From: Thermoplasmata archaeon
GTDB lineage: Archaea; Thermoplasmatota; DTKX01; VGTL01
Length of the DNA: 64,000 bases
Assembly: GCA_038851035.1 (NCBI GenBank)
Contig: JAWCLH010000014.1
Location: 1 to 64,000 of the forward strand
Reading direction: 5' to 3'
The notes under the pieces were generated by a model. It did no database searches, was not told where the DNA came from, and saw nothing but the letters and a program-made list of their open reading frames with translations. Every line of letters starts with the position of its first letter. Within the stretch, counting starts at the first letter, position 1. The position numbers and the translations under genes were made by a program. Of this stretch, positions 9,754 through 34,122 are shown piece after piece.

Positions 9754-12700
9754 TTAATTCTCCACCATAACATTTATGGTCTGAACGCCGACGTTGTCGA
9801 GCATGTCCCTCATCTCTGCCCTGAGCCAGTAGGAGCCGTTGCTGAGGGAGTGGGTGGACCAGCTCACCCCCCATCCATTGGAGCCGTCGCTGTCCACCGC
9901 TATCAGGTGCCAGTTGACGCCGTCGCTGGAGTAGTAGAATGTGCAGTTCCTCACATCCCCGGCCCCAGAGCCCTCGCTGACCGAGATGCTCACGACACCC
10001 GAGACGAAGTCATTCTGCTGGGGGGTGATGAACGAGGGAGAGGGGGGCGTGTTGTCGAGGACTAGTACCATTTCGGTCCCGCTCTCGTTATTCCCCGCCC
10101 TATCCTGGCTACCGTATATTATAGTATGGGGGCCGTCGGGGAGCTCTCTTAGGAAGAGCTCTGTGGCTTCTATATACTTCCCGTCGACTACGAACCAGGA
10201 AGCCTCGAGACCAGAGCAATCATCCGAGGCCGTTAGGGTGAGGTTTGTTCTTGAGCTCACGTTCCACCTGTCGGTCTCCTGCGCCCTGTGCTTCGGCGAG
10301 CCGATGCTCAGGCTCGTGGAGGGCGGGGTGTTGTCGGTCAGGACTGAGACGAAGAGGTAAGCGACGTTGCCGAGCACGTCCACAGCTCTCACCTCGACGG
10401 TGTGCGTGCCATCGCTCTCTGCGGCGGTGTCCCAACGCCACTCGAAGGGGGCGCTACTGGCAGCATATCTGGGGGAACCGTCGACAAGGTAGCTCACCGT
10501 GGCCACGCCGCTCCTGTCGGCCGCCGACGCCCGGACCTGGCGCACTCCATGGGGGACCACCCCCTCCGTGAGCCCCTCGAGAGAGAGCTCGGGCGGCGTC
10601 AGATCGAGATACAGGCGGAAGCTGCCAGAGGCCGCGTTGCCGAGGTTATCGGTGGCCTGGACCGACACAATGTGGTAGCCCTCAGCCAGCCCGGACAGGG
10701 AGAATGGCTCGCGGTACTGGGTCCAGGCGCCATTGTCTATCCTGAAGCTTACCTGCCCTACGCCCGAAAGCTGGTCGGCAGCGCGGATGGAAATCGGGGT
10801 CCGGTCTGATACGTTTGTTATATCATCTGGAGTGGCGGAAGCCTTTGGAGAGCCGATTTCAAGCTCCACATCAGGCGGGGAATTGTCAAGGTTAAGCGTG
10901 AGGGTCTGGACGGGCTGGACGTTGCCGGCGGCGTCTTCCGACCTCCACTGAAGCGATCTCGCTCCATCGGCACCAGTCAGGGCGAACTCACCGGTATGTC
11001 TCTGCCACTCCTCCAATTCCGAGAAGCGGAAGTAAATGGTCTCGGGCGCAAGGGGCTCGGAGCCGTGAGTGAAGGTGATGCGGGTGATGGAGGATATATT
11101 CCAGATGTGCTCGGGGGCGGCCCGGTACTTGGGCTCTGTGAGGACGAGCGAGGCGAGAGGGGGAACCGTGTCCACGAGAAGCTCCGCCGCCTGAGACCAC
11201 TCAGTCGGTGTCCCCATCGCGGTCAGGCCCCTGACCCTCCAGTAGTGCCTTCCATCAGGAAGGGGAGCTGGAGGGGTGTAGGGCGGCGATTGGGCGTGCC
11301 CGGAGAGCTCGAGCGAAAGGAAGGATGGATCGCGCGAGATCTGGACTTCATAGCCTGACGCTCCTTCCACAGGAGACCATTCGAAAGAGGGCAGGGGCTT
11401 GTTCGTCCAGGTTCCGTCTGGGGGCTGGAGACCAGAGGGCGGTGGAGGCAGATAGCTGGCGCTACAGACGGCTCCTCCGTAGCGCTCTCCGCTTGCCGCC
11501 ACGAGGATGAGCTCGTCCCAGACCCTGAGACCGGGGGCGGCGAAGACCGATGATGCGCCTGGCTGGAGGGTGCCCCTAAACAGAACCACTCCTGTTCTCG
11601 TCGCGGTGGCGATGAAGTGTAGCGGACCGATGGAAGCGGGGTCGCTGGAGATATTGACCTCCGCCGTCCCGGGCATCGTGGAGTTTAGGCGCGCCACCCA
11701 TGCCGTCCAAGGAGGGAGGGTGATTAGCAGCTCAGCTCCCCCCGAGCCGATGTCCTGGCTCGACTGGAGGACAGGCTGGGGGTACCTGAATCCCGGCTGC
11801 GTTCTCCACGCCAAGTAATCCCAGAAAAGCTCTTGCAAACTCTTCCCCATCTGGCTTGTGAGAGCCGCCAGCGGGTCCTTGCCTGAATGGAGCATAGTTT
11901 GGGAAAGGGATGCACCGAGGCCGCTCTCTACGAAGCGTTTCTGAAGGTACTCGTAGAATAGCCACGAGCTGGCCATGTCATCGGCGCTGCAGGACCATGA
12001 ATCAATGAAGCTCCGGCTCAGGTCCCGGCCGTTATCATACGGGTTGTATAGACGGGCGGCACGCATGTCCGACAATATGGTCTCGACCGTCGGAGCGGAC
12101 GGGTAGGTCTCGAGGGCCGCGGTCTGAAGGCCCTCAGCAGTTGCCATTCCTTCTCTTATGAATGCTGTGGCTTCCGAGGGCGCACCCCATTTCGCGAGCT
12201 GAATTAGGCACGCTATCTGGCGGGCGCAAAAATAGGCGTTGATAGCCCGGCCGGGGCCGAGCATCAGCGAAACTCTGCCACTCGCTTCGGTCACTCCGCC
12301 ATAGCTCGAGCCGTTGGTTACCCAAACTTCGAGGAGTGGCGCGCCACGGCTAGTGTTGCCGGAAGCGAAGGGCTCCCCGAGCCTCCTGAGCTGCTTCAGC
12401 GAATACTCGATATGGGCCGCCGCCTCCATCAGGAGAGCCCTCGATACGGGGCGGCCGGCGGGGAGGGAGACAGAGCCTGAGCCGAGGGAGAGTGTGGGGC
12501 TGAAGTGCCTCCCGCTCCTGAGCCAGATCACCTGCCGCACTCCCCCCGGCTCAACCTCGAGGATATTCGGCTCGCGGGGGCTGGGCGGGGAGGAGTTCCA
12601 AGCAGCGGGGTCGTATCTGGTGAGACCGATTCTCGAGGCTGATTCCCCCACCCTCAGATAGGGGCCGGGGGATGCCGGGGGCCAGGTCGCCCTGACAGCA

Positions 12701-24713: not shown

Positions 24714-26138
24714 CTAGGCCTTTATGTCCCTGATGAGTTCGGGAATCTCCGCGGGGGCCTCCTCTTCCGTTTTCGGTGGCCGTTCCCCCTCCACACCCGA
24801 GACAAAACACCTTGTGAGTTGGCCTTCACGCTCGACCCTGACGAGGCCCGCCTTGGAGAGCACTCTGATATGGTAGGCGACAACCTGCTTACTCTCTCCG
24901 AGCATTCTGGCCAGCCCACTCTGGCTGGTTCCAGGGTTATTCTTCAGTGCAGAAAGGATGTCCTGCTGGATCCGCGTGAGCTCCCTCTCTCTCCTTGGAA
25001 TTTTCATGTGCCTCGGGTAGAACCTCCTGTAGATTCCATCCCTAACAGAAACAATGTAGTCCTCTCTTTCAAGCACCTTGAGATGGTACGCAAGGACTCC
25101 ATTTTCCAGCTCTAGGTGCTCTTGGATGGCCAGGTAGTGGGCGCCGGGATTGGCCCTGATGAACCCGAATATCTGGCCACGCGTGAAGCGGTCGAGCACC
25201 TTCTCTCTCTTTATCCGCACGAACAGAGGCACGAGAACGACCTGGACGAATGCGAGCAGACCGACTTCGGTGCCGCTGATGAATGCGACTAGGCAGACGC
25301 ACACGAGGAGCAGCGGAACCCCCGCCCAGAGCCAGAGGTCCGGCACCGACTGCGCGGGCAGTGGAGAGGGTTTGTCCTTAACAACGATAGTGAGCGGTAG
25401 TCCCCTGAAGGAATTATATGATTCGGAGCTCTGGACAGTCAAAATGACAACGTACGAGCCGGGGTGCGCATCCCGAGGCAACGCGACCTCTACACTCAAG
25501 TATGCGGATTCGCCCGGCGCGACTTCGACCTCTCCCTTGTCGACGCGGAACGATATGCCCCTCAGGAGCGGGGGCTTCTCCTCAACAGACTGAGTGAAAG
25601 TGTCGGGTGTGGAGCCATAGTTGAGGAGTTTGATTCTGAAGCTCACGGTCTCCCCCGGGTAGCTCTCCCTCTGGGTCTCGTCGCAGCTCACCCTGACCCT
25701 GTTCCTCACGACGGTGACGGTCACAATGCCCTGGGCCAAAGCGGGCGGGGAGCCGTGCGACTCAGCGCGGGCAAGAACCCTGACGGGATAGTCCCCCTCC
25801 TCGGCTTCTAGAGGCGCTGTCACGAGTGCGGAGAAGGAAAGGCTGGTATTCCCAGTCACGGTTCTGCTCGAGGGTGTGATTGTGCCCGGCCAGCCGCCCG
25901 TGTCCAGCTCGAGGCCGACATCCGCCGTCTGGAACTCATTGCCCTTGATGTGCACAGTGCCCGAGAAGGAGGCAGTCATGGGGGAGGGGACCGAAGCATC
26001 TATCTTGACCTCTGGCTGGGGAATCTCCACTTGGACCTCCGGGGTCCTTGCCTCTCCGCCCGGCAGGTCCAGCAGGAACGCCGCAAGAAGGACCGCGCCC
26101 GTAAAAAAGCGCGGTGCCGACCGTGCCATCAGTCCCAT
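24714..26138 (-). CDS. Membrane-bound winged-helix transcriptional regulator with an extracellular sensor domain
   Basis: 474 residues from ATG 26138, about 25 bases after the TATA box. Order: signal or anchor peptide (1-30); extracellular beta domain (ASFSGTVHIKGNEF, GGWPGTITPSS) related to the 23671 and 57900 proteins; a NEW3/Ig-like domain (LLNYGSTPDTF, YPGETVSF); one or two membrane segments (WLWAGVPLLLVCVCLVAFI and VGLLAFVQVVLVPLF); then the archaeal block KREKVLDRFTRGQIFGFI-RANPG followed by two tandem winged helices (AIQEHLELENGVLAYHLKVLERE; LARMLGESKQVVAYHIRVLSKAG). It should pass an outside signal to DNA without a kinase. Adjacent surface-protein genes are the obvious targets, which is inference. 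The number of membrane passes is ambiguous from sequence. Confidence 0.87.
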   Translation of the reverse strand: MGLMARSAPRFFTGAVLLAAFLLDLPGGEARTPEVQVEIPQPEVKIDASVPSPMTASFSGTVHIKGNEFQTADVGLELDTGGWPGTITPSSRTVTGNTSLSFSALVTAPLEAEEGDYPVRVLARAESHGSPPALAQGIVTVTVVRNRVRVSCDETQRESYPGETVSFRIKLLNYGSTPDTFTQSVEEKPPLLRGISFRVDKGEVEVAPGESAYLSVEVALPRDAHPGSYVVILTVQSSESYNSFRGLPLTIVVKDKPSPLPAQSVPDLWLWAGVPLLLVCVCLVAFISGTEVGLLAFVQVVLVPLFVRIKREKVLDRFTRGQIFGFIRANPGAHYLAIQEHLELENGVLAYHLKVLEREDYIVSVRDGIYRRFYPRHMKIPRRERELTRIQQDILSALKNNPGTSQSGLARMLGESKQVVAYHIRVLSKAGLVRVEREGQLTRCFVSGVEGERPPKTEEEAPAEIPELIRDIKA

Positions 26139-26160
26139 CGCTGCGTTAATTGTCACTGGA

Positions 26161-26234: not shown

Positions 26235-26250
26235 TTTTTAATATTTAAAT
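26235..26250 (+). promoter_or_regulatory. TATA box for the CBS-GTPase operon
   Basis: TTTTTAATATTTAAAT lies 16-31 bases before ATG 26266, making a leaderless or nearly leaderless mRNA. Confidence 0.65.
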
Positions 26251-26265
26251 ACGCAATGGTGAAAA

Positions 26266-26889
26266 ATGATGCGCATCGGGGACGTGATGACCCGCAGGGT
26301 GGTCAGGCTCAGACCGGACCACACCGTAAGGGAGGCGCTGCGAGCCTTCGCCCTCAACGGCATCACCGGCGCACCGGTGGTTGATGAGGGCAACAGAGTC
26401 ATCGGAATTCTCACTGAAATGGACATACTGCGGAGGCTTGAACTGGGCTCGATAGTGGTCTCTCCGAAGGCGGCGGCGGGCGACCATAGCCAGACGGCCC
26501 CGGATGACTCCGTGTTGGAGGCGCCGGACCACCTGTGCCTCGTCTCTCTCGCGGAGGCGCTGAAGAACATCGAGGGGCTCAAGGTCTCCCAGCTGATGAC
26601 CCCAGGCGCCATAACCGTCCACCCGGGGGACCGGGTAGAAGAGAAAATGGCCCTCATGATTCACCGGCGAATTCGTCGACTGCCCGTCGTCGACTCAAGG
26701 GGCGTTCTCATCGGCGTGATTTCCCGCAAGGATCTCATAAGGGTCCTATACTCCGTGGCGCTACGCCGCGGGAGGACGGGGGCGGCGGCCAGGAACCCCC
26801 GGAGGAGAAGGGGTACTAGAAATCCCCTGAAGTGGGTGGGGGGCCGGAGGACCCGATGCGCCACAGCGAGGCGGAGGGGCGGGGGATGA
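26266..26889 (+). CDS. CBS-domain pair protein with a basic tail
   Basis: 207 residues. CBS motif 1 (about 1-60: IGDVMTRRVVRL, ALNGITGAPVVDEGNRVIGILTEMDIL) and CBS motif 2 (about 108-165: VSQLMTPGAITVHP, MIHRRIRRLPVVDSRGVLIGVISRKDLIRVL) form a Bateman module that normally binds adenine nucleotides. The last 40 residues are strongly basic (clusters of Arg), possibly binding nucleic acid or membrane. ATG codons occur at 26266 and 26269. The stop codon overlaps the start of the Ras-like gene (ATGA), so the two are translationally coupled; the CBS module may sense energy state for its GTPase-like partner, which is inference. Confidence 0.88.
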   Translation: MMRIGDVMTRRVVRLRPDHTVREALRAFALNGITGAPVVDEGNRVIGILTEMDILRRLELGSIVVSPKAAAGDHSQTAPDDSVLEAPDHLCLVSLAEALKNIEGLKVSQLMTPGAITVHPGDRVEEKMALMIHRRIRRLPVVDSRGVLIGVISRKDLIRVLYSVALRRGRTGAAARNPRRRRGTRNPLKWVGGRRTRCATARRRGGG

Positions 26890-27533
26890 GGGGTGTTGCG
26901 CCGGTCGCGAGGAGGGCGGAGCCCGGGGAAAGGCGCGAGATGATTAAAAAAGTCTGCATTGTGGGTGACTCCGGTGTTGGAAAGAACACGATCGCGGGCA
27001 TCGTGGCGCCTTTCGAGAGGGGCCTTGACAGGCTGGTTGAGAGAATAGGGGCCGCAGTCACGAAGTACGGCGCGGAGTTCCAGGTGGGTGCCCAGAGGCT
27101 CAGGCTCACAATTCTCGTCTGGGACGTGACGGGGAGGAGGGACTTCAGGCGGCTCTGGTCCCGGTACTACACCGGCGCCGAGGGCTTTATCGTAGTCGCT
27201 GACGCGTCCAGACCCTCCACCCTCGTCAGTCTACCCCTTTGGATAAGCGCCGTCAGGGGAGTGGGCGGGAAATCTGTCCCTATCGTGGTTGTGGTCAACA
27301 AGACTGGAGTGGTCCCGGGGGGAGAGCTTGCAGAGCTCCGCCAGCAGCTCACCCGGGCCCTCGCGGACCCCGACATTCCCATTTTTCTAGTCGACGCCGT
27401 CTCATCCTCGAAGTCAGTCCTCAAGGCCCCCTTCAGGGAGCTCGCGCGCAGGATTGCGAGGAGAGAGGCGGTGAGGGATTCAGGGGGCCTGCGGGGGAAT
27501 CTGGTGAAGAGGCTTGCCGGCTCCCCAAACTAG
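26886..27533 (+). CDS. Ras/Arf-like small GTPase homologue with degenerate nucleotide motifs
   Basis: 215 residues from ATG 26886, whose ATGA overlap with the CBS gene supports the start (MIKKVCIVGD at 26940 is the other choice). The fold is clear: P-loop GDSGVGKNT, WDVTG (DxxG), ARYYTGAEG-like switch region SRYYTGAEGFIVVADAS, and VVVVNKTG. But three key positions are changed: the Mg-binding Ser/Thr after GK is Asn, the residue after DxxG (Gln61 of Ras) is Arg, and the base-specifying Asp of NKxD is Gly. In Ras the first change (S17N) abolishes normal GTP-state function. This is therefore likely a pseudo-GTPase or one with altered nucleotide preference. Co-translated with the CBS protein. Confidence 0.85.
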   Translation: MRGVAPVARRAEPGERREMIKKVCIVGDSGVGKNTIAGIVAPFERGLDRLVERIGAAVTKYGAEFQVGAQRLRLTILVWDVTGRRDFRRLWSRYYTGAEGFIVVADASRPSTLVSLPLWISAVRGVGGKSVPIVVVVNKTGVVPGGELAELRQQLTRALADPDIPIFLVDAVSSSKSVLKAPFRELARRIARREAVRDSGGLRGNLVKRLAGSPN

Positions 27534-27650: not shown

Positions 27651-29696
27651 TCAGGGGATGGGGAGCAGAACCACCTGAGACCTTCCCGGCGGCAGGAGCC
27701 GAAGCACTTCCTCGGGGGTGCACTCGAGCTCGCGCGCCAGCCTGCGCGCCACAGTTATGGCCTCATCCTGGCCCGGCTGGATGCCGGCGATTTTCCGTGA
27801 GTGTTTTCGCAACGCGCTTTCGGGCCCGCACATCAGAAGCCTCTCTCCCTCGTGCTCCACCCAGCCAATCGCGAGTCTGAGCTCGAGATTATGTAAGAAG
27901 TTCTTCCGACCGCGGACCACGAATGCCCCCTTGGGTAGGTACTCCCCGCTCTCGGGCGTTTTGCTCACCTGCTCCGGCCTCACCCAGTACGCGCTACCGG
28001 AGGCAAGCCCCGCGGCCCAGGCCTTCGAGCACGCGAGCGCGAAGAGGCAGGCCTCTCGAAGGGTCTGCTCCGGTAACCCCGCGCTTCCTCCGCCTCCCCT
28101 CTCCTCACCCTCCCTCCGCGCGCCGCGACTCTCTCCTTCAGCTCCCCATCTCCTCTCGGACGCCTTCACAACAACGCTCGGGGCCCCATGGAGGTCCGCG
28201 TGAGCGTAGAAGTCCCCCTCCTTCATGTGCCTCTTCACGAGCCTCTCGTTGCTGGAAGCGTCCCTTCCAGCGAGGACAAGGAAGCCCTCGCTCGATATAA
28301 ACCATCTGTACCTCTCAAACCAGAACGGCTTCGTCCGCCTCTTCTTCTCCGGTCCTCCAGCCCCAGCTACGGGGCCGGGGGCTCCCGCGGCAGCCTCCCC
28401 TCTCGCCTCGAGTGAGCGGAGCTTCTCCATCGCCTCCTCCAGAGCCTTGCTGGCCCGCTGGGCCTTCTCCGAAGCCTGCTTTGCTTTCTCGAAGTGGGCC
28501 GAGATGTTCTCCCTAGCGCTCCTCCGGATATCGAGCTCCGCCTGACCCGCCTCAAGCTCCAGCACAACGGTCCCAGCGGGGGGCCTGGCCTCTCTTACGC
28601 ATTCCAGACGACCAGCGGAAAGAGCCTCTTGGACCGATTCCCAGCCGCCACTTGCGTGGAGCCTCCTGAGCTCTTCCAAGAGGCGCTCAAGCTCCTCTGC
28701 CCTGCTCGATAACTCCCCCGCCACCTGCCTACCGGCCCTAGCCTGCTGCTCGCACGCCTCTATCGCCCTTCTCTGGCTCTCGATCTGCCTGCGTAGGCGC
28801 TCAAGCTCCTCGCCAATGCCCCGCCTCCTTTCCTCAAATCTCTTTTTTTTCCTCCAGTATCCCACATAGAACGATATCGCATCATTGACCGTGGCAAGGC
28901 AGCGGGAGGGACGGCCGAGGTCGATCCGGAGCGGAATCGGGGTAAAGTCAACAGGAATTTCGCCCTCAAGGAGTACAACCGGGCTCCTTCGCGAGGAGAC
29001 CTCGTCGAAGAGGCTAGTGATTGCCTCGATAAGGCCTCCAGCATCGGTGGCTGGGAGCCTCGCCGCTTTCAGACTCCTCTCCAGACCGGTGCGTGCGCAG
29101 ACCTCCTCCGCGTACCTTCCACCCAAGTTCACCGACACCGCGAGCGTCCGGACGAGGTCGCCTTTAGAGGCCCTGAGGAGGGCAAGGAGCTCCTTCTCCC
29201 CCAGCGTGCGAGGGTCGGTCCTTGCCGGTGGAAAAAGGTAGGGCTGGCCTCTCCTCACCCTCCGGTGTTCCCAGTCCTCCTCGCGGAGCGGCTGGACAAT
29301 CGTCCCGTTCCTGACGAGCACGATATTCCCCTCGCCGAAGAGCTCGAGCACAAGCTCAGAGTCCTCGAAACCCAGCACAACTAGGCGCTCGAATCCCCTC
29401 TGCTCAACGGACCTCAGCCGTTGATTCTCTAGGTGCTTCCTAAGGAGCATCGCGAAGGCCGGTGGTGGCGGGAGCTCCTCCTGGGACCTATCGCGCGTGT
29501 AGAGCCACCGCCCCTCCTCGACCACGAGCTCCACTCTCCCCCTACCCGGTGTCCTCAACCGGAGGAATAGCTCTCGATCCGAGGGCTGGAAGACCTTCTC
29601 AACGAAGCCCCCCACGACTCCCCGGAGCTCATCGACGAGGGCCAGAACGTCGAATGCTGTCAGCTCTGTTTTGGGAGGGCTGGCGGGGGCCTCCAT
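27651..29696 (-). CDS. rqcH: NFACT protein RqcH (Rqc2 homologue), ribosome quality control
   Basis: 681 residues. It binds the 50S subunit carrying a stalled peptidyl-tRNA and, in bacteria and by homology in archaea, directs C-terminal tailing. NFACT-N begins with LTAFDVLALVDELRG, includes FAMLLRKHLENQRL and LFGEGNIVLV; a helix-hairpin-helix region and a long charged coiled coil (about 285-440) follow; NFACT-R is marked by WFERYRWFISSEGFLVLAGRDASSNE and DFYAHADLHGAPSVVVK. The ATG at 29696 lies about 28 bases after a TATA-like GTTATATTGAT located at the end of the neighbouring gene. A low-complexity Gly/Glu/Arg insert (GAEGESRGARREGEE) interrupts NFACT-R. Confidence 0.93.
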   Translation of the reverse strand: MEAPASPPKTELTAFDVLALVDELRGVVGGFVEKVFQPSDRELFLRLRTPGRGRVELVVEEGRWLYTRDRSQEELPPPPAFAMLLRKHLENQRLRSVEQRGFERLVVLGFEDSELVLELFGEGNIVLVRNGTIVQPLREEDWEHRRVRRGQPYLFPPARTDPRTLGEKELLALLRASKGDLVRTLAVSVNLGGRYAEEVCARTGLERSLKAARLPATDAGGLIEAITSLFDEVSSRRSPVVLLEGEIPVDFTPIPLRIDLGRPSRCLATVNDAISFYVGYWRKKKRFEERRRGIGEELERLRRQIESQRRAIEACEQQARAGRQVAGELSSRAEELERLLEELRRLHASGGWESVQEALSAGRLECVREARPPAGTVVLELEAGQAELDIRRSARENISAHFEKAKQASEKAQRASKALEEAMEKLRSLEARGEAAAGAPGPVAGAGGPEKKRRTKPFWFERYRWFISSEGFLVLAGRDASSNERLVKRHMKEGDFYAHADLHGAPSVVVKASERRWGAEGESRGARREGEERGGGGSAGLPEQTLREACLFALACSKAWAAGLASGSAYWVRPEQVSKTPESGEYLPKGAFVVRGRKNFLHNLELRLAIGWVEHEGERLLMCGPESALRKHSRKIAGIQPGQDEAITVARRLARELECTPEEVLRLLPPGRSQVVLLPIP

Positions 29697-29734: not shown

Positions 29735-32700
29735 CTACCTCTGCGTCCTTCCGCACTTGCGGCACTGGTAAACTCCCTCCCCGATGAGTAGGAGCCTCGA
29801 GCCGCAGGCGTAGCAGAGCCTAGTCGTCAGGACCGCGCGGGCAGGCCCAGCTCCCTTTGTGGCATCCTCTCCCAGTAATTGTGCTGAACTCCCTAGGGCA
29901 GGTCCCTCGCGCTCCCTGGCCGCCTGCATGGCCTCGATTCTCTGCTTCCGCCTGAGCGCGAATAGGTAGAATCCTATCGCCCCTCCCAGAATCGCGGCGA
30001 CGAGGGCCGCGGGCCCCGCCCAGAGCATGAAACCGGAGTCTCCGGCAATCCCGCCCTTCGAGACCGGTCTAGGCACAATTACAACACTCACATTGGTGAC
30101 CACAGTGTTGCCATCGCTGTCCGTTACTGAGACGGTGATATCGTCCCTTCCCGTCTTTCCAAGCGATTTTACTCTCATGAGCCCGCTGGCATCAATACTA
30201 ACTTCGAGAAGGCCCCGGTCGACTCCGGTCACGTTGAACCTGAGGCCGAACTGGCCGTCCTCCCTGTCACTCGCATACATCGTCAGATCGATCTGGACCT
30301 CCCTCCCCACCTCGACCCTGAGTTCCCCGATGGCCTCAATGAAGCTCGGGGGGAAGGAAAGGAGAATCTGGATATCAACATGCCCTGCAGCCTTTCCGTC
30401 GCTTACCGTTATTCTGACTAGCTCATTCTCGAGGTTCTCGTCGTGGGGGTAGTTGAATGTCACGGTGAAGCCTTGCACTGAGGCGTAAATCGTACTGACC
30501 ATGACCCTGAGCTGGCTGGGCTCATTGTCCACATCGGACACGAAGGGCCTGAGGTCTAGGGTAAGTGGTACTCCCACCGGGACCGTCTGAGGAGGAATCG
30601 GGGCAATCACGGGCGGGTCGTTGACGGAGAGTACTTTGAGCGTCAGGTTTACCATAGCCTCCAGTCCACCGGTGTCCCTCACGATGAGAAGCATCGTGCC
30701 CTCGCCACTCAAATTCGGCAAGGGATAAATTCTGAGGGTGTTGTTTTCATCGATTTCAACGGTGAGCAGCTCGGCCGGGATGTTCTCTGCCCTCCACCTA
30801 AGCGCGCTCGGGGCGTCCTCCTCGTCGAATGCGAAGGGTGCAAGGTCTAGTGTGAGGTTCGTGTCCTCGTTTGTAGTCAGGGGTGGAATCGGCAGCGTCA
30901 CCGGGCGGTCGTTCACGCCCCGAATTTTAACTTGCAGCACGCCGTTAGCAGTTGCGCTGCCGTCTGAGAGCGTTAGGTTGATGCTCTCCCCGCCAATGTC
31001 TATCGGGTAGTGGAAGGTAATATTCAGGCCCTCAACCTGAGCATAGAGCGAGGTCATTGTTAGCCGGAGCTGGCCGGGGTTGTTGTCAACATCGCCCACG
31101 AATGGACCGAGGTCGAATGTGTAGAAGGTGTCCTCCGTTACATTGACGACCGGTAGCTCAGCGAAGTAGGGGGGATCATTGACCGGTGCGATGGTTACAT
31201 TGATAAGCTCCGAGTCCGTGAAGACGCCGCCCCTGTCGGTAGCCCTCACTCCGATTCTTCTAGTGCCGTACCAGTCCCGTGTGCCCGAGTAGACACTCAG
31301 CCAGGTGCCGTTCACCGCCGCGTGCACCTTGGACGCCTCCTGTTCATATACCACGCTGTAGCTCAGCTCGCCGGGGTAGATGTCGTCTGTGAAGTATTCG
31401 TTTAGGTTCAGGGCGTTCTCGAGGGAACCATCCTCGGGGAAGGAAATTGCGGGGAAGGCCCTGATCTGGGTTGGCGGGCCGTTCAGGAAGAAATACCCCA
31501 GCGCCGACCAGGGGCTGAAGCGGCCCGTTTCGTAGACGGCCCGGACGCGCCAGTAATATTTCCCTCCCCTGATTTTTGAGGGGGTGTAGGAGGCTCCCTC
31601 CGGGTCGACGAGCTTCTCGTCCTCGTCGGGGCTGGAGAAAGTGGAGTTGTCGTCTATCTGCACGTGATAGTTGACGATGGGGTCGTGTGTGGTCGGGTAT
31701 ATCCAACACTCGAGCATCTTCATCCAAGTCAGCCGGGGCATGACGTTGTTGAAGAGCGCGCCGTCCGGAGGCCCAGTAATAATCGGCGTGAGCAGAGGGA
31801 CGTTTCTCGGTGTTCCGCCGTTCGAAGTGGCCCGGCCCGCGCCCTTTCCCCCATAGCTCCCGCCCCCTGCCGAAGTCTTCCCATCGCCCTTTGTTCCCCC
31901 GACCGCGGTGATATGGACGAAGTCCGCCGGAATGGAGCCCTGAAGGCAGTAGAACGCCACCTCTGCGTCTCCGCCGTCGCCGGTGTTGCCCGTCGCCTGC
32001 CCCTCGCCCGCGCTACCGGAATAGGAGCCGCCCCCGGAGCCAGTGTAGCCCCCTCCGCCACCGCCAGCGTTGCTCCCTCCGGAGCCGCCGGTCCCGCCGT
32101 TGCCGCCCGAGCCTCCCGTGGCGTTGATGTAGGACGAGTTGAACCAGAGATAGTTGAGTGCAGTCATGCGGACGAGTGCCATGCCCCCCCTCCCGACGTT
32201 GCTCGAAGCACTCCCGCTGCCCGCGGAACCCTGATAGCTGTAATAACCTGCCCCACCCCCGCCGCCGTAGCCCCCTCCTCCACCTCCGCCGTAAGACCCT
32301 CCCTTTCCGCCTGTGCCTCCGTTGCCAGCGTTGCCCCCGCGGAGGTTGAGCGAGCTGTTGACGGCCCATATATTCTGGGCAGTAATGACCAGTGTGGCGT
32401 TGCCTCCCGCGCCCACGTTCCCCGAGGCGGTCCCGGCTCCTCCGCCGTTGTAGCCCCCGCCGCCACCGCCGCCACCGTACCCCCCTCCCCCGCCTCCTCC
32501 GTAGTTCCCGTCGCCGCCCGTTCCCCCGCTGGCCGAGTTACCTCCCGTGCAAAAGAGCGAGAGGCCGTCCAAGGTGAGGTTGTTGCATGACACGCTCATG
32601 TTGGCCTCGCCCCCCGCACCTACGTTTCCCCCCGCGGCGCCGCTTCCCCCTGTCGCGTAGGAGCTCCCTCCTCCACCGCCTGCGAAGCCACCCCCACCGC

Positions 32701-33814
32701 CACCGGCTGAGTAGTAGGGGTAATTCGAGACGCTGCCCCCTCTGCCTCCAGCACCTGGCGTACCTCCGTTGCCGCCTTTGAGGATAGCTGTGGCGCTTCG
32801 GATGGTCGCGTTCTCCGCCTCTACCACAAACATCGCATAGCCCCCAGCGCCCACATTATCAGAGACCGACGCGCTCTTGCCAGAGCTCTGGTAGTTTTCG
32901 CCCCCGTCGCCGCCGGCATACCCGCCACCTCCACCACCGCCACTATAATAATATTGGCTGCCGCTGGAGGTCGATCCCGCGCCGCCGTTTCCCGCGTCCC
33001 CACCCTTTCCAGCACTGCAATCTAGCATAACGTTTTCAATGAGTACCGTGCGGCCGCTGACATGTACTACGCCATCCCCCCCAGAGCCTACGAAGCCCGA
33101 CACCCTTCCTCCATTGCTATAGCCACCGCCCTGCCCGCCGGTTCCCCCGCTACCGGCCTTTCCGTCCGCGGCCCGGCCCCCGTCCCTGCCAATTGTGGTG
33201 AACTTTGAGCCGCCGGAGAGCTCTACATAGGGCGTTTGCGGCCCGCCAAGTCTTATCAGGCCCCGGCCGCCCGCGGATATGTAGCCCGATAGTGGACCCG
33301 AGGTCCAGGGAGTGGTGGTCCCTCTCCCGTTCCCGCCGATGCACTTGATTTCAGACCCTCCGGTCACCCTGACGAACCCAGATGCGTTAACGCTGACTAT
33401 CGCCTCTCCCCCCTGGCTCAAGTCCATCGTGGCTGCGCCGTCTGGAGCCATCAAGGTGATTTTACTGCCGCCCGAGACGTTGAAATCGATGCAATCACCA
33501 GCGATCACCGCGTCCAGGCCCGGAGTGGTCTGCGTGACGGCGACGGTGCCCCCGGAGGCGATGAAGCTCCCCCCCTCCAAATGGATTGATTTGGCGTTGA
33601 GGGTTGTGCCCTGCGGGATAATCAGAGTTCCTCCTTCTCTAATTACAATCAGCTCCCAGGTCTCGGTCCCCGAAACGCGGTACTCCGAGCTAACTATCAG
33701 ATTCTGGCCCGCGGGCCGGCCACCCTCTCCAAAGACAGGGAGCAGAGGCGTCAGGGCGGTCACAGCCATCGCCACGACAGCAACCCACGCAGTATAAAGA
33801 CGGCCGACGCTCAT
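29735..33814 (-). CDS. Giant glycine-rich surface protein with cadherin-like repeats, membrane helix and cytoplasmic zinc ribbon
   Basis: 1359 residues from ATG 33814 (AAAGGGG ribosome site about 7 bases upstream; the TATA at 33884 excludes the ORF opening at 33928). Signal peptide 1-29. A beta-helix-like N-terminal region is followed (about 200-680) by five or more repeats of 75-85 residues, each anchored by NVGAGG-A and containing long Gly/Tyr/Ser runs. Next come a fibronectin-III-like domain (WRVRAVYETGRFSPWS) and about five cadherin-like modules (VNDPPYF, VNDRPV, VNDPPVI). A membrane helix (MLWAGPAALVAAILGGAIGFYLF) leads to a cytoplasmic tail ending in a CxxC...CxxC zinc ribbon (CYACG, CRKCG). 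The glycine repeats suggest an extended, flexible surface fibre; role unknown. Confidence 0.85.
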   Translation of the reverse strand: MSVGRLYTAWVAVVAMAVTALTPLLPVFGEGGRPAGQNLIVSSEYRVSGTETWELIVIREGGTLIIPQGTTLNAKSIHLEGGSFIASGGTVAVTQTTPGLDAVIAGDCIDFNVSGGSKITLMAPDGAATMDLSQGGEAIVSVNASGFVRVTGGSEIKCIGGNGRGTTTPWTSGPLSGYISAGGRGLIRLGGPQTPYVELSGGSKFTTIGRDGGRAADGKAGSGGTGGQGGGYSNGGRVSGFVGSGGDGVVHVSGRTVLIENVMLDCSAGKGGDAGNGGAGSTSSGSQYYYSGGGGGGGYAGGDGGENYQSSGKSASVSDNVGAGGYAMFVVEAENATIRSATAILKGGNGGTPGAGGRGGSVSNYPYYSAGGGGGGFAGGGGGSSYATGGSGAAGGNVGAGGEANMSVSCNNLTLDGLSLFCTGGNSASGGTGGDGNYGGGGGGGYGGGGGGGGYNGGGAGTASGNVGAGGNATLVITAQNIWAVNSSLNLRGGNAGNGGTGGKGGSYGGGGGGGYGGGGGAGYYSYQGSAGSGSASSNVGRGGMALVRMTALNYLWFNSSYINATGGSGGNGGTGGSGGSNAGGGGGGYTGSGGGSYSGSAGEGQATGNTGDGGDAEVAFYCLQGSIPADFVHITAVGGTKGDGKTSAGGGSYGGKGAGRATSNGGTPRNVPLLTPIITGPPDGALFNNVMPRLTWMKMLECWIYPTTHDPIVNYHVQIDDNSTFSSPDEDEKLVDPEGASYTPSKIRGGKYYWRVRAVYETGRFSPWSALGYFFLNGPPTQIRAFPAISFPEDGSLENALNLNEYFTDDIYPGELSYSVVYEQEASKVHAAVNGTWLSVYSGTRDWYGTRRIGVRATDRGGVFTDSELINVTIAPVNDPPYFAELPVVNVTEDTFYTFDLGPFVGDVDNNPGQLRLTMTSLYAQVEGLNITFHYPIDIGGESINLTLSDGSATANGVLQVKIRGVNDRPVTLPIPPLTTNEDTNLTLDLAPFAFDEEDAPSALRWRAENIPAELLTVEIDENNTLRIYPLPNLSGEGTMLLIVRDTGGLEAMVNLTLKVLSVNDPPVIAPIPPQTVPVGVPLTLDLRPFVSDVDNEPSQLRVMVSTIYASVQGFTVTFNYPHDENLENELVRITVSDGKAAGHVDIQILLSFPPSFIEAIGELRVEVGREVQIDLTMYASDREDGQFGLRFNVTGVDRGLLEVSIDASGLMRVKSLGKTGRDDITVSVTDSDGNTVVTNVSVVIVPRPVSKGGIAGDSGFMLWAGPAALVAAILGGAIGFYLFALRRKQRIEAMQAAREREGPALGSSAQLLGEDATKGAGPARAVLTTRLCYACGSRLLLIGEGVYQCRKCGRTQR

Positions 33815-33883
33815 CGCGAACATCCCCTTTGACCTTTTGATACACGGCGACTGTATTTTAGATTTTCCCATGAGCAGGTAAAT

Positions 33884-33893
33884 CTTTAAATAG
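33884..33893 (-). promoter_or_regulatory. TATA box for the glycine-rich surface-protein gene
   Basis: On the minus strand CTATTTAAAGATT lies about 70-80 bases before ATG 33814, predicting a leader of about 45 bases with the AAAGGGG ribosome site. Confidence 0.55.
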
Positions 33894-34122
33894 TCCCCTT
33901 CAGCCAGTCTTGCATCGGCCGCGTCCACCCCACCGCCCGCGTCTGAAGCCGGAAATAGCGCGTGAAAAGCCCCATTAACTCAGCGCTTTCCGCGCGCCCA
34001 CAGGCAGAGACACACTCTTATTGATGGAACATGCTATCACACCGCATACCTTCTGGGAAAAGATTATCAAATCGAACGCTGTTCACAGCACTCGCCAGGG
34101 GACTGGCAGAAGGGGGTAATGA

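Follow-up and report, generated by a model that had tools for sequence, protein, structure and literature searches.

A conserved Ras-like pseudo-GTPase, predicted from its sequence, overlaps a CBS-pair gene in an archaeon of the Thermoplasmatota

The window (the whole stretch of 64,000 nucleotides analysed here) encodes a Ras-like protein that, judged by its motifs, is a conserved and maintained pseudo-GTPase; it probably no longer works as a GTPase and serves as a lasting partner without enzymatic activity. Its gene (26886..27533, + strand; 215 amino acids, ATG at 26886) was identified from its open reading frame, Pfam matches, motifs, position in a tree and a structural model. It begins within the end of a gene for a 207-residue CBS-pair (Bateman) protein (26266..26889, + strand), which was assigned from its open reading frame, Pfam, a model and an orthologue in a second genome (G001). 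The whole reading, in which this conserved pseudo-GTPase is the non-hydrolysing partner of an adenylate-type CBS sensor, is considered reasonably probable, and the evidence for the CBS partnership is suggestive.

The two genes share an ATGA start/stop overlap (26886..26889, + strand). The sequence-only reading had pointed to this overlap with a Bateman-module gene, and it recurs in the orthologous pair of G001; it is thus kept across genera (G000, the genome of the window, and G001) at about 50% protein identity. The CBS and Ras-like genes probably form a short, co-translated operon. Just upstream of the CBS start, an A/T-rich, TATA-like stretch (26236..26251, + strand) is a candidate archaeal promoter; no sigma-70-type site was found, as expected for an archaeon. 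A convergent NFACT/RqcH/NEMF gene (27651..29696, − strand; Pfam NFACT_N, 1.7e-54) lies outside the pair and neighbours it in G001 too.

Several other features of these regions were recorded. A secreted or membrane protein is encoded divergently from the CBS-GTPase operon (24714-26156, − strand), and towards its C-terminus it resembles two DNA-binding domains of the winged-helix (HTH) type, making it a possible membrane-bound regulator. Adjoining the NFACT gene is a gene for a very large glycine-rich surface-type protein (29735-33928) with a counterpart in the other genus (L072:4452-7688); both proteins combine Ig/cadherin-like domains with a membrane segment and have a CxxC...CxxC zinc ribbon at the C-terminus. 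Open frames on contig C11 of G001 contain repeats of short peptides (GSKAARQQ, GSMAAWQH) at L105:6408-7205 and 10410-11276, probably an intergenic repeat array read through.

The Ras-like protein matched the Pfam families Roc (4.4e-14, 53.2 bits; cut-off 27) and Ras (2.3e-13, 50.5 bits; cut-off 21.6). Its residues are given below with Ras positions in brackets, a numbering based on alignment to the corresponding Ras residues. The P-loop (GDSGVGKNT, 26964..26990, + strand) keeps K33 (16) and carries N34 (17) in place of the Ras serine, while the switch-I threonine is replaced by R53 (35; 27042..27044, + strand). The G3 motif (DVTGR, 27123..27137, + strand; WDVTGR in context) keeps D80 (57) and G83 (60) and has R84 (61) at the catalytic Gln position. 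G4 reads NKTG (27297..27308, + strand), with N138 and K139 kept and G141 (119) in place of Asp, and G5 reads DA for SA (27393..27398, + strand), with D170 (145). The sequence-only reading had named the S17N-type change, the Arg at the Gln position and NKTG, and R53 and D170 are further changes beyond those three. Its description of the fold as otherwise intact fits the AlphaFold model (pTM 0.74; pLDDT 74.7 on average, falling below 50 in parts of both switches) and the best Foldseek matches of that model, which are Rab GTPases (Sec4, E 5.4e-13, TM by target 0.77).

An active small GTPase was taken to have Ser/Thr17, Gln61, NKxD and SAK all present; the window protein has N34, R84, G141 and D170-A171 instead. 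By the sequence criterion of PMC10731463, a pseudoGTPase is recognised when key residues of the conserved G motifs have been replaced non-conservatively. To this definition we added that the changes be kept in orthologues, and position 17 of the P-loop and G5 are changed in all three orthologues, the window protein included.

Clear orthologues were found in two genomes among 60 relatives: G001, of the same family but another genus (53% identity), and G002, of the same class (42%). The window's own genome is 99% complete. The motifs read GDSGVGKKT, WDVTGKED and NKTD in G001 and GDSGVGKKT, WDITGKED and TKVD in G002, with NA and TS, respectively, at G5. Common to all three proteins are the P-loop change (Lys at position 17 in both orthologues), a basic residue at the Gln61 position (Lys in both) and the loss of SA from G5, and all three keep GxxxxGK, D57, G60 and the lysine of NKxD; Ras T35 and D119 are kept in two of the three. 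The claims about the P-loop and the catalytic Gln were therefore borne out beyond the window, positions 17 and 61 being altered in both orthologues. NKTG is present in the window protein as claimed, but it and the switch-I Thr-to-Arg change are confined to the window; NKTG was rejected as a family trait and is therefore no defining mark of the family. Because the orthologues in two other genomes share a residue other than Ser/Thr at position 17, sequencing error was ruled out. Seven other Ras-like genes of the same superfamily were found in G000 using the window protein as query (27-40% identity to it), and all seven, unlike the window protein, keep Thr at position 17, NKxD and SA.

A profile of the three orthologues was searched against 389 genomes of the phylum and gave matches in at least 47 of them at E ≤ 1e-15; at most eight candidates per genome were scored, and the resulting domain set comprises most of the matches listed and is incomplete. 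Motifs were read in 158 loci. After removal of duplicates, of fragments contained in other entries and of loci known to repeat others, these yielded 172 distinct domains, of which 171 have a complete P-loop; most come from the phylum, but seven entries come from six named loci, three of which are Lokiarchaeota. Position 16 is Lys in 171/171 domains. At position 17, 164 domains have T, 4 have S, 2 have K and 1 has N, and those with K or N are the window protein and the orthologues in G001 and G002. The switch-I position 35 is T or S in 170 of the 171 domains with a letter there, the window being the exception. Of the 166 domains with letters at NKxD, 162 have an intact motif (the others being the window with G, G002 with T for N, one H-for-N and one E-for-D). 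SA of G5 is present in 159 of 164 with letters; its loss, which the three orthologues share, is rare outside them. Non-Gln residues at position 61 are common (42 of 167 domains with a letter, 39 of these outside the clade), and Arg at this position was therefore dropped as strong evidence on its own. The spacing from GK to the switch-I T/R-I-G is 22 in exactly the three orthologues, against 21 in 164 of 167 measurable domains.

The proteins being one residue longer here, the Lys or Asn was also considered as an insertion before an old Thr17. Substitution followed by a later insertion was preferred, because the residue after the P-loop Thr is still hydrophobic (I, I and V in the three orthologues versus L in 96%) and because GKKT proteins of the Lokiarchaeota phylum, described below, align by eye without an insertion. 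Under substitution and insertion alike, the residue that follows the P-loop lysine is not Ser/Thr.

The 389 genomes of the phylum were also scanned at the DNA level. The pattern GDxxVGK[K/N]T gave four matches, namely the three orthologues and one unrelated membrane protein. The pattern GDxxVGK-(C- or G-starting codon)-T gave 12 matches in the 389 genomes and 2 in 148 genomes of the Lokiarchaeota phylum, and among the 14 there was no match to the Ras-like profile. Both patterns demanded GD, V and Thr18, and at position 17 they covered C- and G-starting codons and AAN codons.

Other architectures were seen among the Ras-like loci of the phylum. In G014, G023 and G031, Ras-like domains stand at the C-terminus of 330-360-residue frames (L013, L014, L015, L020, L021, L022, L027 and L033), the N-terminal parts of which look TPR-repeat-like by eye at L014, L015 and L022. 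In two genomes of one genus (G292 and G381; L047 and L052), about four Ras-like genes lie in a tandem cluster, with a GKTS P-loop and a WDIMG[EQ]KGF switch II.

In a quick IQ-TREE tree of 163 domains, the three orthologues formed one clade (SH-aLRT 99, stem 0.83). The window branch is longer than that of G001 (0.59 vs 0.27), and the window copy may therefore be more decayed than the G001 copy. Between G000 and G001, dN and dS were 0.44 and 1.92 for the pseudo-GTPase, 0.46 and 1.53 for the CBS gene, 0.41 and 1.25 for the NFACT gene and 0.40 and 1.39 for the next gene, with dS saturated in all four. Third codon positions are the most divergent in the pseudo-GTPase, as they are in its three neighbours, and by these comparisons it appears to be under purifying selection. 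Six canonical paralogue pairs evolve more slowly (dN 0.12-0.28), so that the constraint on the pseudo-GTPase appears weaker than on these paralogues. Residues specific to the clade follow the P-loop (T35, G38, A41) and switch I (A57, Y61) and are also found at T82, at V169 and in the region of the last helix (S177, L179, K180, P182); they would suit a private binding surface. The sequence-only reading of a pseudo-GTPase is thus largely borne out by three orthologues in one maintained clade, although NKTG, one of its original grounds, is not shared by the other two.

The CBS protein matched Pfam CBS (E 1.9e-28) in two stretches, CBS1 at residues 4-58 and CBS2 at about 105-162, with a low-confidence linker (66-79) between them; the model has a pLDDT of 73.7 and a pTM of 0.61. 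The basic C-terminal tail (residues 163-207; 26752..26886, + strand) was delimited by composition, its 45 residues comprising 16 Lys/Arg and no Asp/Glu, and is mostly of low model confidence. The adenylate-type ligand motif of CBS domains is G-h-x-T/S-x-x-D. One such motif is found in each domain (GILTEMD and GVISRKD), in agreement with a CBS-pair (Bateman) assignment, and the type is kept in G001. Among solved structures, MJ1225, AcuB and CBSX proteins are closest, and several of these were crystallised with AMP, ADP or ATP, and the best Foldseek matches of the model include CBSX2-AMP and AcuB with AMP/ADP/ATP. A nucleotide-sensing partner is plausible because both motifs are kept and Foldseek returns CBS proteins bound to AMP, ADP or ATP.

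The suggestion of a nucleotide-sensing pair is limited by the distribution of the coupling, which was found in two of the three genomes that have the pseudo-GTPase. The CBS protein scored E 2.3e-124 in G000 and its orthologue E 6.9e-107 in G001, whereas an orthologous CBS was not found in G002 (88% complete), G003 or G004 (best E 1.5e-8, 2.1e-8 and 1.3e-9, respectively). With G002 lacking it, an ancestral CBS coupling in the clade is unsupported. The nearest CBS paralogue in G000 (L104) stands near HisS- and HflX-like genes (names by eye) and no Ras-like neighbour was seen, so that this paralogue gave no sign of the pairing being a common arrangement in these genomes.

In the reading that we prefer, the pseudo-GTPase keeps a Ras fold and the phosphate loop GxxxxGK, while Asn in the window protein, or Lys in its orthologues, stands for the canonical Mg2+ ligand, Arg or Lys occupies the catalytic Gln position, and base recognition is degenerate in G5 and, in the window, in G4 too. 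With the P-loop lysine intact and Asn or Lys next to it, nucleotide binding is expected to be weak, Mg2+-independent or absent, without useful GTP hydrolysis, and the protein would act as a fixed-state surface. The CBS pair would be the likelier sensor: adenylate binding would change the CBS dimer, and the pseudo-GTPase would dock on this dimer and pass its state on, as ARL15 does on the CNNM CBS pair. The motif losses, their conservation in three genomes, the single clade, the gene overlap in two genomes and the CBS motifs were established by computation, and from them we infer the nucleotide behaviour, the physical complex, the ligand and the output; for the mutual binding and an allosteric role, the argument comes from the operon structure and the ARL15-CNNM precedent. 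The small number of orthologues, three in all, counts against this explanation.

Because D57 is kept in all three proteins and T35 and D119 in two of them, GTP or GDP may still be bound, perhaps with a rearranged Mg2+ site and above all in G001, and Thr18 might act as the Mg2+ ligand instead. An atypical working switch would go further, binding GTP/GDP and cycling; Mg2+ would be held by Thr18 or Asp57, and the CBS protein would be a GEF- or GAP-like regulator. It would be compatible with these retained residues, with the GxxxxGK and G60 of all three proteins, and with the frequency of non-Gln61 residues in the phylum, but Ser/Thr17 and SA of G5 are gone in all three, the Asp of NKxD is lost in the window and its Asn in G002, and the spacer to switch I is longer; we regard such a switch as unlikely. 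That the gene is simply a GTPase in decay and on its way out is very unlikely: faster evolution than in the paralogues and the extra losses in the window lineage would agree with decay, whereas frames that are open in three genomes with shared derived residues, the excess of third-position change and a dN/dS like that of the neighbours speak against it.

The partnership itself must be weighed against two other arrangements. The genes could share an operon although their products form no complex, the CBS protein sensing adenylates and the pseudo-GTPase serving as a scaffold, each acting apart under shared expression, which is a possible but doubtful alternative. G002 fits it, since its pseudo-GTPase occurs without the CBS protein and carries an N-terminal zinc-ribbon-like segment (DZR match weak, below the cut-off), as does the G000 CBS paralogue without a Ras-like neighbour; the ATGA overlap, kept between diverged genera, argues for a closer tie. 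The pair could also be a ribosome-linked device, with the basic, disordered CBS tail binding ribosomes in an energy-dependent manner and the pseudo-GTPase helping near NFACT/RqcH. Besides the tail and the NFACT neighbour in two genera, sequence matches of the CBS protein to 9sr9, 9znf and 9e6q, which we take to be ribosome-complex entries, would favour such a device, as would the existence of archaeal CBS modules that are ribosome hibernation factors (HibA and Dri; PMC13324472). However, the NFACT gene is convergent and outside the operon, and it lies on a different contig from the pseudo-GTPase in G002. The archaeal CBS modules of PMC13324472 (HibA, Dri and CM-1 to CM-6) share CBS domains with the window protein, and HibA binds AMP best. 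In HibA, four CBS domains make up a module that is fused to HPF/RaiA, whereas the window protein has one CBS pair with a basic tail and gave no HPF/RaiA match (Pfam, E up to 1). The ribosome-linked device is rated as quite improbable.

For the preferred pairing of pseudo-GTPase and CBS sensor, the nearest precedent appears to be ARL15-CNNM, although homology of the two pairings is not claimed. According to PMC10348743, ARL15 is a small Ras-superfamily protein that has Ala at the catalytic position and binds GTP very weakly (about 20 uM), and nucleotide has little effect on its binding to the CBS pair of CNNM2; the window pair resembles it in lacking the catalytic Gln and in having a CBS-pair partner. 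ARL15 is Arf-type and eukaryotic, whereas the window protein is Rab/Ras/Roc-like and archaeal and has a change in the P-loop itself; CNNM is a membrane Mg2+ transporter, whereas the window CBS protein has no transporter part. The eukaryotic pseudoGTPases CENP-M, Rnd and the p190RhoGAP domains likewise combine a Ras-like fold and broken G motifs with a binding or scaffold role (PMC10211241), but the window protein has Asn (Lys in its orthologues) after an otherwise intact P-loop and is encoded in an archaeal operon. An archaeal CBS/pseudo-GTPase pair was not found in the open-licence literature searched.

Similar P-loops occur beyond the clade. In the 148 genomes of the Lokiarchaeota phylum, to which G390, the source of a Lokiarchaeota locus, belongs, the pattern GDxxVGK[K/N]T gave three matches, one of them outside any Ras-like frame. 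The other two, from two genomes (L192, G485:C237; L194, G492:C116), are Ras-like (Pfam Ras 2.7e-20 and 2.2e-23) with Lys17 and a degraded G3 (WVIPQ, WELGG), and at L192 a tandem neighbour is also GKKT and has lost G3. Downstream of the L194 gene is an open reading frame with MEASFPKKCLISCSYKDAD near its start, TIR-like by eye. Every non-Ser/Thr17 Ras-like protein found by the patterns has Lys, except for the Asn of the window; the numbers are small, but this fits the idea that the lysine may stand in for Mg2+. A recurrent metal-free type of pseudo-GTPase, in which Lys or Asn at the Mg2+ place would neutralise the nucleotide phosphates and lock one state, and which would have arisen at least twice (in the CBS-partner clade and in the broken-G3 proteins of the Lokiarchaeota phylum), is a tentative idea and unlikely.

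The three proteins make up an orthologous prokaryotic pseudoGTPase set with a signature of its own: the P-loop reads GDSGVGK[K/N]T, the stretch leading to switch I is one residue longer, and G5 is lost. The pseudoGTPase examples in the consulted parts of the cited literature are eukaryotic, whereas this set is prokaryotic and stands in a two-gene operon with a CBS sensor. As a minimal pair, it makes a GTPase-fold/CBS partnership like that of ARL15-CNNM testable, and if lysine does replace Mg2+, GKKT would be a sequence marker for metal-free Ras-like proteins.
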